A DNA stretch of 38,592 nucleotides from a virus, in the IMG/VR virus record IMGVR_UViG_3300014501_000036, positions 1 through 38,592 of that record; one strand, given 5' to 3'. The number at the start of each line of letters is the position of its first letter. The stretch's first letter is position 1. A model generated the notes under the pieces. The model made no database searches. It saw nothing but the letters and a program-made list of their open reading frames with translations, and was not told where the DNA came from. This document shows positions 5,641 to 23,530 of this stretch, piece by piece. The translations under genes and the position numbers were made by a program.

Positions 5641-5877
5641 ATGACGCGGCTTGATATGAAGCCCTTATCGCCTCAGCAGCGCGCGGCGCTGGCGCTTTTG
5701 TCGGGTTACGCCGCGACCGACCAGCTCGGCTATTGGGCATGGCGCGCGCAAATCCGGCCATTCCGCCAAATAACGCACCGGCTAGAGGATGAGGGGTTGA
5801 TCCAAATCATGCTTATCCGGTTGACACATACAGCTACCCATGCTAGTTTCCTTTCATCGGGCGATACCGCCCTTTGA
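5641..5877 (+). CDS. Hypothetical protein, HTH-like N-terminus
   Basis: 78 residues; GGAGA at 5631-5635 precedes the ATG at a good distance. LSPQQRAALALLSGYAATDQ followed by an Arg-rich helix and THRLEDEGLI looks like a compact helix-turn-helix or winged-helix fragment. The last 25 residues are Thr/Ser-rich and coincide with a promoter-like sequence, so the true protein may effectively end around residue 53. Between this gene and the membrane protein there is also an 18-codon frame at 5598-5654, too short to support. Confidence 0.5.
   Translation: MTRLDMKPLSPQQRAALALLSGYAATDQLGYWAWRAQIRPFRQITHRLEDEGLIQIMLIRLTHTATHASFLSSGDTAL
5821..5849 (+). promoter_or_regulatory. Sigma70-type promoter candidate
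   Basis: TTGACA (5821-5826) is separated by exactly 17 bases from TAGTTT (5844-5849), with an upstream TG dinucleotide (5841-5842) giving an extended -10. A short GGGCG/CGCCC stem (about 5859-5872) and GGAGAG (5879-5884) follow before the ATG at 5889. It would drive the 5889-8830 small-gene run. The -35 box is a perfect consensus match; the -10 box is poor. Confidence 0.5.
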
Positions 5878-5888
5878 TGGAGAGTGAA

Positions 5889-6164
5889 ATGTCCGAAGTG
5901 ACGAAAGCCGAGATTGAAGCTGCCCTGACCAACATGCGCGAGTTGGCGCGCAGCCCTGCGAAACTCGCGGAAATGACAGCGGCATGGAACCAAGCCTGCG
6001 ATAGGTTGGAGGCGCACTATCTCGCGATGCGCCCCAAGCCCAAGAGCTTCGAAGTACACCATATGAACGAGGTGGCCCGGTATCGTTTCATCTGCGCTAT
6101 TGCGGCGGGTCACCCGATGGCTGAATGCGCGAATCTCGCCGTCGCCAAGATCGCGGGGGTATAA
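5889..6164 (+). CDS. Hypothetical protein (91 aa)
   Basis: The ATG at 5889 has GGAGAG four bases upstream and is favoured over in-frame starts at 5874/5877. The protein is mostly helical (KAEIEAALTNMRELARSPAK and following) with a central basic stretch (MRPKPKSFEVHHMNEVARYR). No domain recognised. It is the first gene after the candidate promoter and is spaced 3 bases from the next start. Confidence 0.6.
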   Translation: MSEVTKAEIEAALTNMRELARSPAKLAEMTAAWNQACDRLEAHYLAMRPKPKSFEVHHMNEVARYRFICAIAAGHPMAECANLAVAKIAGV

Positions 6165-6167
6165 GCC

Positions 6168-6464
6168 ATGACCACGCTTCAGACGCTCCGAACTGCCCAT
6201 GAAGCTGCTTACGCTGATTTGCTCGCCTTGATTGATCGCAAGTTTCCGGGTGCGGCTATTTGGAACTGGTATCGCGCTCTGCTCGCAGTCAAGGGTGAAA
6301 ATGGCCGCCGCAATGATGACACGTCGCATGACGTAGCGATGGCCGCTGATACGGACATTAAAGCAGCGCACGATGAATACATTCGGCTGCTTCACGTCTT
6401 CTACAGGGCGCGAGACGGCGAGCACGGCGTATTGGGCGCTTACCGACAACGCGGGGAGGCCTGA
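6168..6464 (+). CDS. Hypothetical protein (98 aa)
   Basis: 98 residues, largely helical, with an aromatic patch (FPGAAIWNWYRALLAVKGE) and an acidic, His-containing middle (NDDTSHDVAMAADTDIKAAH). No family is recognised. It lies between two genes with gaps of 3 bases, so it is almost certainly part of the same transcript. Confidence 0.6.
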   Translation: MTTLQTLRTAHEAAYADLLALIDRKFPGAAIWNWYRALLAVKGENGRRNDDTSHDVAMAADTDIKAAHDEYIRLLHVFYRARDGEHGVLGAYRQRGEA

Positions 6465-6467
6465 CCT

Positions 6468-6674
6468 ATGGCTTATTTTGAACAGCACGGCGCGATGCAT
6501 AGTTGGCTTGGTAAGCCCGCTGCGCCCGTTTTGGGCGTCGTCTGCGATGCGTGTGCCGAGTCTGTTGTCCCCTTCGACCGCACAAAACGGGTAGGGTCGC
6601 AACACTGGGATACAGGATGGAAATGGGCACCGCACTACGGCGCGCCGTGCGGCAAATGCGGAAAGGCCACTTAA
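6468..6674 (+). CDS. Small zinc-ribbon protein (68 aa)
   Basis: Two CxxC pairs, VCDACAES (around residues 26-29) and PCGKCGKAT at the C-terminus, make a probable zinc ribbon around a Trp-rich loop (QHWDTGWKWAPHYG). GGGGAGG upstream (6452-6458) supports the start. The stop TAA is immediately followed by the ATG of the chimeric nuclease gene. The function is unknown; nucleic acid or protein binding is usual for such ribbons. Confidence 0.6.
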   Translation: MAYFEQHGAMHSWLGKPAAPVLGVVCDACAESVVPFDRTKRVGSQHWDTGWKWAPHYGAPCGKCGKAT

Positions 6675-7598
6675 ATGCCTCCCCATGCCGACGTGCTGCA
6701 ATGGGAACATCTGCCGTTCCCCAAGTCTCTGAGAGACTTTCAGAAATTGTTCAAAGACGACGCCGCGTGCGCGCGATACCTGGAGGGCGCAAAGTGGCCC
6801 AAAGGTTTCGTGTGTCCGCATTGCGAGGAAAAAGGCGAGCCGTTTCGCATGGCGACGCGGACTAGCGTTCTGACGTGCCGCGCCTGCCGCAAGCAAACGT
6901 CCCTGACGGTCGATACCGTGATGCAGCGCACACATGCGCCGCTGACGGTCTGGTTTTGGGCGGCCTACCTCGTTTCCAGCATGACGCCGGGGATGTCCGC
7001 AGTTCAATTCCAGCGCCAGCTTGGCCTCTCGCGATACGAAACCGCGTTCCAGATTTTGCACAAGCTGCGCGCCGGCATGGTCCGCCAAGGCCGCGATCAA
7101 TGGCAGACTTTCAAGAAAGCGCTCGGCATGACGAAGCCAGGACCGAAACCGCAACCTATCGATATTCGCTTTCGCCGATGGATCAACCTCGACGGACCTC
7201 TTCCGGCACATCGGCCTGAGCTTGGACCGTGCTGGTTGTGGACTGGCGCAATTCGCAAGGACGGCTATGGAGCTTTTCAGATCCAGGCCAAAGCCGAGAT
7301 GGCGCATCGCGTCGCCTTCTATATCGCCGAAGGGCGCTGGCCTGACCCGTGCGCGCTGCATCATTGTGATACGCCACTCTGCGTGAGGCGCACGCATCTA
7401 TTTGAGGGAACGAAAGCCGACAATACCGCTGACATGGTTGGCAAGCGACGCAGCACGCCGCGCATCCTTACGGACGAAAAGGTCGCGGAAATGGTGGAAC
7501 GTAAAGCGCGCGGCGAGACACAGACTGCGATAGCTGAAGCGCTCGGCGTGAGCCAAGCGCTCGTATCGCTTACCCTCAAGCGGCGGATCGCGGCATGA
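6675..7598 (+). CDS. Chimera: IS1595-type transposase N-terminus fused to HNH nuclease and HTH
   Basis: 307 residues in three parts. Residues 1-145 match the start of IS1595/IS1016 transposases: a sentence-like FQKLFKDDAACARYLEGAKW, a zinc ribbon (FVCPHCEEKG ... LTCRACRKQTSLT), then TVMQRTHAPLTVWFWAAYLV and SRYETAFQILHKLRAGMVR. This stops just where the DDE catalytic domain should begin. Residues 165-260 are an HNH_3-type nuclease (GPCWLWTGAIRKDGYGAF ... AHRVAF ... ALHHCDTPLCVRRTHLF). The last 45 residues form a helix-turn-helix (ETQTAIAEALGVSQALVSLT). The transposase core and terminal inverted repeats are absent, so it is not an insertion sequence. It is probably a free-standing homing endonuclease that borrowed a transposase DNA-binding domain. 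The stop overlaps the next ATG. Confidence 0.85.
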   Translation: MPPHADVLQWEHLPFPKSLRDFQKLFKDDAACARYLEGAKWPKGFVCPHCEEKGEPFRMATRTSVLTCRACRKQTSLTVDTVMQRTHAPLTVWFWAAYLVSSMTPGMSAVQFQRQLGLSRYETAFQILHKLRAGMVRQGRDQWQTFKKALGMTKPGPKPQPIDIRFRRWINLDGPLPAHRPELGPCWLWTGAIRKDGYGAFQIQAKAEMAHRVAFYIAEGRWPDPCALHHCDTPLCVRRTHLFEGTKADNTADMVGKRRSTPRILTDEKVAEMVERKARGETQTAIAEALGVSQALVSLTLKRRIAA

Positions 7599-7750
7599 AC
7601 GAGTTCACTTTCAGGTTTAACCGGCGCTTCTACCCGTTCAACGCCTTCCGTTCGCTGCTCGGAATCGGGACCAACGGCGAAGGCCCGACCTATGCCGGGA
7701 TTTATGAGGGAACTTGGAAGCATCCGACTATGAGCAGCCATCATGACTAA
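7595..7750 (+). CDS. Small hypothetical protein (51 aa)
   Basis: Starts in an ATGA overlap with the chimeric nuclease gene. The peptide (MNEFTFRFNRRFYPFNAFRS, then a Gly-rich GIGTNGEGPTYAGIYEGTW) is aromatic and basic. No domain recognised. The overlap suggests it belongs with the upstream gene in translation, though it could equally be an old phage gene beside which the nuclease landed. Confidence 0.5.
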   Translation: MNEFTFRFNRRFYPFNAFRSLLGIGTNGEGPTYAGIYEGTWKHPTMSSHHD

Positions 7751-7768
7751 TCAACATTTGGAGGTTGT

Positions 7769-7897
7769 ATGTGTAAACCGGAGAAGCATGATCCAAATCA
7801 AGAACGGCATCGTCAGGATAACCGACGAAGGGCGCGGGTATTTGGAGCCGTCGCGATGACCTTTCGGCGGCTCTGCGAGACGGGGCGCTGGCTATGA
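7769..7897 (+). CDS. Small hypothetical protein (42 aa), start uncertain
   Basis: GGAGG at 7760-7764 sits four bases before the ATG at 7769. The product is basic (MCKPEKHDPNQERHRQDNRR and on) and its stop overlaps the next ATG. A competing 23-codon frame, 7788-7859 (MIQIKNGIVRITDEGRGYLE...), is preceded by GGAG and has a more protein-like composition. Only one of the two may be real. Confidence 0.4.
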   Translation: MCKPEKHDPNQERHRQDNRRRARVFGAVAMTFRRLCETGRWL

Positions 7898-9510: not shown

Positions 9511-9675
9511 ATGAGAGAAGCCAACGGCCCCCTGCGCCTGGCGATCCTCCTGCTGGTCCTGGTCGGCTGGGCCTGGGTCACGCAACCCGAGCATCCGCAG
9601 GCCTGCACGCGGGACTTCTGGCGGTGGACGCCGATCGACTGGACGACCGATACGGCCGGGGAGTTTTGCCGATGA
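9511..9675 (+). CDS. Small membrane or exported protein (54 aa)
   Basis: MREANGPLRLAILLLVLVGW is a basic start plus a hydrophobic helix, followed by a Trp- and Cys-containing tail (CTRDFWRWTPIDWTTDTAGE FCR). A GTG at 9490 would add seven residues. The final 32 bases are repeated, slightly diverged, at the end of the downstream decarboxylase gene. The stop overlaps the next ATG. A Cys-rich short exported peptide is the best description. Confidence 0.55.
   Translation: MREANGPLRLAILLLVLVGWAWVTQPEHPQACTRDFWRWTPIDWTTDTAGEFCR
9640..9671 (+). repeat. Direct repeat copy 1 flanking pyrF-like gene
   Basis: 32 bases starting TGGACGACCGATACGG and ending TTTTGCCG. A second copy at 10386-10417 matches at 29 of 32 positions. 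Both copies encode the peptide WTTDTAG near the C-terminus of their gene. Together they bracket the decarboxylase coding sequence. Confidence 0.85.
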
Positions 9676-10421
9676 TGAACCTAGCTGATCGCCTAATTGT
9701 CGCGTTGGATGGCGATGCAGCCGAGATGGGTTCTGTGTTCCTGCGACTTCATCGTGAGACGTCAGCACGCTGGTTCAAGGTTGGCCCCCAAATGCTGTTG
9801 CGGCACAGCGGGATGATATTCATCGAAAACATGATGCGTGAGGACGGCGTCAATCTGTTCTACGATGGAAAGGTCTACGATACACGCGATACGGTTACGA
9901 ATACCGTTCGTCGTTCTTTCGATCTCGGTGTCCGTTTCATTACCGTACACTCCACGCCCAGCGTCATGGAGGCGGCGATGCGCGCTAAACCAGCGGACGA
10001 ACGTTGTAAGGTGCTAGCGGTAACGCACCTGACCGACGATGGAACTCCTTATTCTAGTTCTAAGCTTCGATACGCGCTGTCGATCTGTGATGGTGTGGTC
10101 GGATCATACGTAATAGCGCGTTATGTTCGTCAATGGCTTGATGAGAAAAGTCCCACGATCATCAGTCCAGGTATTAGACTCCCTGACAAGTATGGCCAGA
10201 TTGAGAAAACTAGAGACAATCATGATCTGAGCCACGTCGCAACGGCGTCTGAGGCGCTCCAAGCCGGCGCCGATTATCTTGTCGTCGGCCGCGCAATTAC
10301 TCAAGCTCCGGACCTGATCGCCGCCGCCCGTGCAATTATATCCGAGATGGAATCCGCACACCTGCGAGCGCCGGAAAATGCCGATTGGACGACCGATACG
10401 GCTGGGAAGTGTTGCCGGTAA
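9672..10421 (+). CDS. pyrF: Orotidine 5'-phosphate decarboxylase (PyrF-like)
   Basis: 249 residues; converts OMP to UMP, the last step of de novo pyrimidine synthesis. The TIM-barrel signature is clear: RLIVALDGD at strand 1, WFKVGPQMLL, the catalytic D-x-K-x-x-D motif in YDGKVYDT (Asp65, Lys67, Asp70), ITVHSTPSVM, LAVTHLTDDG, ISPGIRLPD and finally YLVVGRAIT with the phosphate-binding Gly-Arg. Length is close to bacterial PyrF. The last dozen residues (DWTTDTAGKCCR) duplicate the end of the gene upstream and do not belong to the enzyme family. GGGGAG (9658-9663) sets the start; an adjacent ATG at 9675 is possible. A phage-carried pyrF could keep UMP supply high during DNA and RNA synthesis. 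All catalytic residues are present. Confidence 0.9.
   Translation: MMNLADRLIVALDGDAAEMGSVFLRLHRETSARWFKVGPQMLLRHSGMIFIENMMREDGVNLFYDGKVYDTRDTVTNTVRRSFDLGVRFITVHSTPSVMEAAMRAKPADERCKVLAVTHLTDDGTPYSSSKLRYALSICDGVVGSYVIARYVRQWLDEKSPTIISPGIRLPDKYGQIEKTRDNHDLSHVATASEALQAGADYLVVGRAITQAPDLIAAARAIISEMESAHLRAPENADWTTDTAGKCCR
10386..10417 (+). repeat. Direct repeat copy 2 flanking pyrF-like gene
   Basis: Second copy of the 32-base repeat at 9640-9671, with 3 mismatches. It forms the last codons of the decarboxylase gene, so the enzyme carries a foreign C-terminal tail. Confidence 0.85.
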
Positions 10422-22423: not shown

Positions 22424-23530
22424 ATGACCAACCCCGCCGGCCATCCGACAGATTTCGAGAGCTTCCTCACCTGGGAAGCCCTGACCGAAATGCTGTCCTA
22501 CGATCCGGCCAGAGGTGAGTTTAGATGGGTGCGTCGAGGCAATCGCGAATGGCCCGGCCGCATCGCGGGATGCATCGATACGAACTCTGGTTATCGGCGG
22601 ATCAAAATCTTAGGCCGCAGTTTCTTCGCCTCGCGTTTGGCGTGGCTCTATATGAAGAAGCGCTGGCCGACCCAGTTGATCGACCACAAAAACGGCAATC
22701 CCGGAGATGATCGCTGGATCAACCTCCGCGAGGTGAGCCGTACAGAGAACATGCACAATCGGCGTGTCTCAAAGAACAGCAAGACGGGCGTCAACGGCGT
22801 TTACTGGCAGAATGGCGGCTGGGCCGCTCGAATTCGCGTTGATGGCAAGCGCATCTTCCTTGGCACGTTCAATACCATTGAAGAAGCGGCCGCGGCGCGC
22901 GCTGGTGCTGAAATCGCCCACTATGGCGAGCATCAACGCGCCGTTTCAGAGCGATCCGTGCCCGCGCCAGAGCCGCTGGAACCGCTGAAGAAACCCGCTC
23001 CTAAGCGCGGCGTTATCGGTGACTTCGAATCATTCCTCACACATGAGGAACTGATTGAAATCCTCTCTTACGATCCTGTCTCCGGATTTTTTACGTGGCG
23101 TAGCAAGAAGACAAATCCGCGCATCAAGATCGGGAGCCGTGCTGGGGATCATAAGGAGGGCGAGTATTCCGATATCACGATCCTCTGCCGCAAATTTCGC
23201 GCTCATCGCCTCGCTTGGCTCTACATGACCGGTAAGTGGCCGAAGGGTGTCATTGATCACATCGATGGCATCAAATCGGATAATCGCTGGGACAACCTGC
23301 GCGACGTGACGAAGGGTCAGAACGCGCACAACAGCCGCCTCAATAAGAATAACAAAAGTGGGCACACTGGCGTCAGTTTTCGCTCCGATAGTGGGAAGTG
23401 GCGCGCAATAATCAGGCTCAATGGTAAACTAAAAAATCTTGGGCAGTATGATACGGCCGAGGATGCTGTCAATGCTCGCGAGAAATTCGAGAGGGAATTT
23501 CTTAGCGACTTCTTCATAAGGAGTGCTTGA
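22424..23530 (+). CDS. Composite homing endonuclease: two HNH-AP2 units
   Basis: 368 residues made of two homologous halves. Half 1 (about 10-160): FESFLTWEALTEMLSYDPAR, HNH core LIDHKNGNPGDDRWINLREV with N..N (ENMHNRR), then AP2 domain TGVNGVYWQNGGWAARIRVD. Half 2 (about 200-365): FESFLTHEELIEILSYDP, HNH core VIDHIDGIKSDNRWDNLRDV, then TGVSFRSDSGKWRAIIRLNG. HNH_3 nucleases with an AP2 DNA-binding domain are typical free-standing homing endonucleases; the tandem form is unusual. It sits between decoration and capsid genes. The capsid gene's ribosome site AAGGAG (23518) lies within its 3' end. Both active sites look intact. Confidence 0.9.
   Translation: MTNPAGHPTDFESFLTWEALTEMLSYDPARGEFRWVRRGNREWPGRIAGCIDTNSGYRRIKILGRSFFASRLAWLYMKKRWPTQLIDHKNGNPGDDRWINLREVSRTENMHNRRVSKNSKTGVNGVYWQNGGWAARIRVDGKRIFLGTFNTIEEAAAARAGAEIAHYGEHQRAVSERSVPAPEPLEPLKKPAPKRGVIGDFESFLTHEELIEILSYDPVSGFFTWRSKKTNPRIKIGSRAGDHKEGEYSDITILCRKFRAHRLAWLYMTGKWPKGVIDHIDGIKSDNRWDNLRDVTKGQNAHNSRLNKNNKSGHTGVSFRSDSGKWRAIIRLNGKLKNLGQYDTAEDAVNAREKFEREFLSDFFIRSA

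Follow-up and report, generated by a model that had tools for sequence, protein, structure and literature searches.

A putative phage HNH homing endonuclease gene in the place of the catalytic core of an IS1595-family transposase

In a stretch of viral DNA of 38,592 nt (IMG/VR record IMGVR_UViG_3300014501_000036, positions 1 to 38,592, hereafter the window), the catalytic core of an IS1595-family transposase is replaced by a nuclease gene with an HNH and a helix-turn-helix (HTH) domain. The same arrangement was found in a second viral contig, L190, and, according to the trees described below, sister nuclease genes took over the core in two separate transposase lineages. We consider it probable that a lineage of free-standing, putative HNH homing endonucleases repeatedly invades IS1595 transposase genes. 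The features on which the analysis is based are the following.

5641-5807, plus strand: interrupted phage wHTH gene, 5′ part, continuing at 7799-7859
5800-5807, plus strand: left target-site duplication, ATCCAAAT, identical to 7791-7798
5808-5822, plus strand: left terminal inverted repeat, CATGCTTATCCGGTT, common to dozens of elements with 8-bp duplications
5821-5849, plus strand: promoter-like TTGACA-17-TAGTTT overlapping the left end, a pattern recurrent in relatives
5874-6164, plus strand: passenger ORF 1, 96 aa, unknown
6168-6464, plus strand: passenger ORF 2, 98 aa, unknown, with 3-nt spacing to its neighbours
6468-6674, plus strand: passenger ORF 3, 68 aa, unknown, with four Cys
6675-7598, plus strand: chimeric ORF (head, HNH and HTH), 307 aa, without internal stop
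6675-7098, plus strand: transposase head, zinc ribbon and HTH region, residues 1-141, delimited by identity to intact L002
7099-7595, plus strand: HNH cassette, 497 nt in place of the 471-nt DDE core, breakpoints by alignment to L002-L009
7128-7598, plus strand: HNH endonuclease gene proper, HNH_3 and C-terminal HTH, 156 aa from M152
7596-7750, plus strand: remaining 3′ end of the transposase gene, in the +2 frame relative to the HNH
7776-7790, plus strand: right terminal inverted repeat, AACCGGAGAAGCATG, with 1 mismatch to the left end
7791-7798, plus strand: right target-site duplication, ATCCAAAT, an exact 8-bp copy
7799-7859, plus strand: interrupted phage wHTH gene, 3′ part, completing the frame after removal of the transposon
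L190:2565-4588: L190 element, with matching inverted repeats and without target duplication

Positions 5808-7790 are occupied by an IS1595-family transposon that has interrupted a phage gene, precisely a complete phage element of IS1595 type, 1983 bp in length and with three passenger ORFs. When the wHTH flanks are rejoined with one copy of the duplication they give one ORF of 75 aa, for which locus L288 holds an uninterrupted homologue over the full length. IS1595 elements are defined by a zinc finger, a DDE domain and an 8-bp duplication (PMC8101967). With the ISAcr1-like members of the family (Siguier 2009, as cited in PMC8101967) the window shares the zinc-ribbon head (69% identical to that of ISAcr1), terminal inverted repeats of the same type and the 8-bp target duplication; unlike them, the window copy is without the DDE domain and has an HNH nuclease in its place. 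Moreover, ISAcr1 (Acidiphilium) measures about 1.05-1.08 kb without cargo, whereas the phage elements begin with a promoter-like left end, followed by 1-4 passenger ORFs and, last, the transposase. The promoter-like left end (TTGAC-17/19-TAG or TAT) was present in 44 of the 56 autonomous copies, and a generic sigma-70 scan gave no score to the site of the window at 5821-5849. The sequence CATGCTTATCCGGTTGACACATACA, located about 870 nt upstream of the head and common to relatives at varying distances, recurs in inverted orientation just past the transposase gene.

The original prediction, made from the letters alone, had described the 307-aa ORF as an IS1595 transposase N-terminus without its DDE domain, fused in one unbroken frame to an HNH_3 nuclease and an HTH. 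The profile searches bear this out. In Pfam, residues 27-74 match Zn_ribbon_IS1595 (PF12760, 3e-12) and residues 209-251 match HNH_3 (PF13392, 1.5e-7), so that both domains occur over cut-off in one protein with a single open frame; HTH_23 matches residues 269-303 below the cut-off (5e-4). Over residues 1-141, relatives show an identity of 97-98% (against the intact L002 transposase, the head is 89% identical in nt and 98% in aa), and past residue 141 they continue as full DDE transposases. The NCBIfam model transpos_IS1595 (NF033547) is matched by residues 86-140, which cover model positions 2-56 of 215 and, since the match is confined to the start of the model, indicate that the DDE part is absent from the ORF; the DDE_Tnp_IS1595 catalytic domain is likewise absent. 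Among PHROGs, the head was assigned to phrog_25593, a family of 344 aa, and the remainder of the ORF to several HNH families. PDB sequence searches with the head and with the HNH gave no match for either. The AlphaFold model of the whole chimera, which had two sequences as input, reached a pLDDT of 45, and that of the 156-aa HNH was confident, with a pLDDT of 90.

The description of the protein was thus correct, but the prediction had overlooked the 3′ end of the transposase gene and the surrounding transposon with its repeats and target duplication. In the DNA alignment with intact loci, the window matches in two blocks, one between the start codon and position 7098, the other between 7596 and about 7795 (over 7598-7795, L002 is 91% identical in nt); only the DDE core is missing from the transposase gene. 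The lost 471 nt, or 157 codons, comprise all three catalytic residues and the VEVDET, VITDA and HLVFSN blocks of L002. The transposase 3′ end comes directly after the HNH stop and could be read from an ATG at 7595, which shares nucleotides with this stop (ATGA). Since both flanks of the transposase gene were kept, the nuclease gene took the place of the core inside a transposon. The insert is nearly all coding sequence. The HNH gene proper begins like the free-standing gene of L110 and the L190 cassette, which share the start MTKPGPKP/MKPGPKPK, and its catalytic motif has the conserved C, H, H and N in the alignment with relatives. A Foldseek search of the 156-aa HNH against the PDB gave no significant match, the best nuclease being I-PpoI (E about 0.3), a predicted resemblance too weak for a fold assignment.

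The L190 chimera has the same arrangement in one frame and is 66% identical to the window chimera over 301 aa; for the HNHs alone the identity is 65%. In this case, 559 nt replace 545 nt of the nearest intact allele, and the breakpoints differ from those of the window by about 50 nt on the left and about 12 nt on the right. The 8-mers flanking the L190 element, AGGCGTTT and ATTCATTG, are different, and a search of the contig for further ends found only that one pair.

We compared a DNA tree of the head (first 116 codons) with a protein tree of the HNH. In the former, the window head falls inside a clade of intact copies (100/97) and the L190 head groups with the intact L165 and L166 (100/100); a single chimeric clade was rejected, as the constraint costs 135 log-likelihood units (p-AU 4e-11). 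In the latter, the nucleases of the window and L190 are sisters (100/96), with the free-standing L224, L225 and L223 nearby. The two trees are therefore discordant, which, for two chimeras only, points to horizontal spread between alleles; with the heads in different intact lineages and the HNHs sisters, the nuclease genes entered two transposase lineages separately. Between the window and L190 HNHs we obtained dN 0.25 and dS 2.29, the latter near saturation, hence a dN/dS of about 0.11, from which purifying selection on the HNH is clear. The dN/dS of the heads against intact relatives (about 0.02-0.10) is not usable for selection on the fusion, since much of that history predates the insertion.

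According to the reading that we favour, the nuclease would be a free-standing homing endonuclease specialised on the IS1595 transposase gene. When two phages share a cell, it would cut the intact transposase allele of the partner, and repair by means of the remaining head and tail homology would copy the nuclease across and remove the DDE core. The invaded element would lose its self-mobility and might persist by phage copying, by homing or by mobilisation in trans from an intact copy. Published precedent covers each step of this mechanism for other targets: break repair is the means by which free-standing homing endonucleases are inherited, their flanks being co-converted and the cleavage site often lying at a distance (PMC2988022), and in mycobacteriophage Omega the insertion of a free-standing HNH removed 35 bp of the target (PMC3706429). 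The invasion is supported by the intact alleles (HNH in 2 against about 75 intact transposase alleles), the exchange of the core with flanks kept, the recurrence in L190, the discordant trees, the conserved HNH and the occurrence of free-standing HNH relatives outside IS1595 elements. Against it, the roughly 80-95 elements include only 2 known chimeras, the junctions of both are in frame, and, since the HNHs have diverged to 65%, the link between nuclease and transposase is old and thinly sampled.

The original prediction had attributed the ORF to the capture of a transposase DNA-targeting domain by a phage homing endonuclease. Here the genuine head, the missing DDE domain and the phage homing-type HNH and HTH in frame all stood, but the likely cause did not, as both flanks of the transposase gene survive and the L190 nuclease has start signals of its own. 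These are a promoter-like GTGACA-17-TATACT, an AGGAG Shine-Dalgarno and its own ATG. In the window, the nuclease Met at 7128 has a leader of 29 nt with the weak Shine-Dalgarno AAGAAAG and without a promoter-like site, so the fusion may be translated there, and a long product starting at 6675 is quite possible for this allele. On these signals the nuclease is best regarded as a separate, complete gene. Since L190 has its own signals and M152 has an equivalent at the start of a free-standing relative, the in-frame joining of head and nuclease may be incidental, and is probably a by-product of the insertion, even if a longer fusion product may be made. The chance of both head-HNH junctions being in frame is about 1 in 9.

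A functional fusion, i.e. a retargeted nuclease of 307 aa in which the head recognises DNA, perhaps the transposon ends, and the HNH cleaves it, is unlikely, although no other alternative fares better. It would account for the single frame in both known chimeras, for the window HNH being without obvious promoter or strong Shine-Dalgarno and for the still conserved head. However, the L190 nuclease has separate expression signals, the HNH already brings its own HTH, and conservation of the heads is expected anyway, both being close to intact copies. The linkers also argue against it: they are unrelated to each other, as judged by eye, and to any related locus compared, and a comparison of the 29-nt and 98-nt leaders with 2.2 Mb of related loci gave nothing similar. 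Rather more doubtful is the specific version in which the 307-aa chimera is made and acts as a transposon-aimed nuclease, with the head binding IS1595 ends or transposase DNA and bringing the HNH there; if it were true, the element would have given up DDE transposition and would spread from one transposon copy to another by nuclease-driven homing.

We also regard as improbable a passive decay in which a mobile HNH landed by chance, without targeting, in transposase genes freed from selection. Only two chimeras are known, four transposase loci (L062, L171, L175 and L241, the last with an internal deletion) are broken without any HNH, and HNH genes are common in phages, the window phage having another at 22424-23530. 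Nevertheless, the two cassettes are nearest kin and lie in the same gene of different lineages, with the same core removed and the flanks kept, and neither HNH shows decay. An assembly artefact or a frameshift joining two genes, the latter named as an objection in the original prediction, is very improbable: the window is a metagenomic viral contig, but the independently assembled L190 contig has a homologous arrangement in one frame, and the window copy is bordered by intact transposon ends and an intact target duplication. Homing nucleases often travel within introns or inteins, but a working transposase gene interrupted by a nuclease-bearing group I intron or intein can hardly be entertained, because the coding sequence fills nearly all of the insert and the rejoined flanks give no working transposase, 157 codons with the three catalytic residues being gone. 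An intron or RNA element at the junction was likewise rejected, as the search of junction and insert gave no match to any Rfam family and 471 nt of the host gene are missing; the RNA structure at the junction was weaker than that of shuffled sequence.

The invasion reading was compared with known mobile nucleases. Like the window nuclease, phage free-standing HNHs (T4 mob genes, PMC2988022; Cluster J, PMC3706429; Skunavirus, PMC12724721) combine an HNH with a C-terminal DNA-binding region, are present sporadically against intact alleles, and their insertions can delete the target. They sit between phage genes, whereas the window HNH lies within the transposase gene of a transposon, and, unlike them, the putative homing nuclease of the window type replaces a catalytic domain in two separate lineages. 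The nearest free-standing HNHs (L224, L223, L225 and Orf2 of Myxococcus phage Mx9) have the same HNH_3 core and are 38-58% identical to the chimera HNHs; L223-L225 also share a GPxPxHRPxLGPC segment with the window HNH, and no IS1595 head or ends were found at these three loci. IStrons and IS605-type elements carry RNA-guided nucleases (TnpB, IscB) and therefore resemble the window in having a transposon-borne nuclease, but the window HNH replaces the transposase core and probably belongs to a different HNH family.

Searching viral contigs with the head gave dozens of loci in which it continues into a full 349-aa transposase; in all, about 75 related loci have this intact transposase. In a wider scan with a profile of the head, 81 loci were checked: 75 contain the whole transposase, 2 are cut off by the contig end, 3 are otherwise broken and 1 is a chimera (L190). 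A scan with the transposase tail sequence found no further chimera, so the tally is 2, both from metagenomic viral contigs, among roughly 80-95 elements, and rarer chimeras may escape these collection scans, which rely on exact short patterns. Among isolate phages no record covers 80% of the chimera. Among plasmids, a single match, Arthrobacter p232, reached a coverage of 80% or more; it and two lower ones were rejected as chimeras, being alignments across unrelated frames with no fusion. In the literature, largely without subscription papers, we found neither an account of a transposase gene invaded by an HNH nor one of these phage IS1595 elements.

The family comprises IMG/VR loci L002-L221 (e.g. 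L002:5194-7090, L005:4990-7171 and L028:2820-5084). A scan for the ends gave 78 elements, 56 with a transposase head and 22 without; a few of these 22 are bacterial copies or cases in which the motif was missed. These 78 elements have 77 different 8-bp target sequences, which is strong evidence from the insertion sites that the family really transposes, at many sites. The cargo is extremely diverse: 119 passenger ORFs fall into 104 sequence clusters, and the few matches to known families include DNA methylases, an XcyI-type restriction enzyme, Lar restriction alleviation, PAPS reductase, radical SAM and an Xre/MbcA antitoxin. Bringing out this large family is one outcome of the analysis. The other is a concrete, testable case, with three nested levels of parasitism (phage, transposon and homing gene), of a putative homing endonuclease that repeatedly disables a transposase by displacing the catalytic core. 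Should homing be confirmed, this would be a natural brake on phage transposons and a route by which transposon ends and cargo turn non-autonomous.

Some minor observations concern the family as a whole. About 20 non-autonomous copies of 235-1035 bp (e.g. L006:376-610, L091:6787-7027, L067:199-873, L084:3417-4187 and L100:3989-4580) have the same ends and exact 8-bp duplications without a transposase, and, since several phages hold both autonomous and non-autonomous copies, their mobilisation in trans is likely. In L062:3608-4063 and L171:15-480 the transposase ends near the chimera breakpoint (after HKLRA) without an HNH, and in L241, near 5173 on the reverse strand, an internal deletion joins transposase residue 37 to the tail. 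Two phages, L020 (3220-5090 and 5558-7431) and L063, have two autonomous copies each, in opposite orientation and about 0.5-3 kb apart. Consecutive passenger ORFs are exactly 3 nt apart in 28 of about 57 pairs (6162-6170 in the window), and a purine-rich site precedes the junction motif stop-GCC-ATG; within the elements, the density of T(GA/AA/AG)RYCATG is about 14 times that of same-strand flanking DNA. This 3-nt motif may mark the mode of cargo addition.

Elsewhere in the window, the neighbouring ORFs with ends at about 9640-9675 and 10385-10421 carry the near-identical WTTDTAGEFCR and WTTDTAGKCCR, a short direct repeat. The further HNH endonuclease ORF at 22424-23530 encodes 368 aa; its two HNH-like stretches both hit the same families, which may reflect a tandem duplication inside a single protein.
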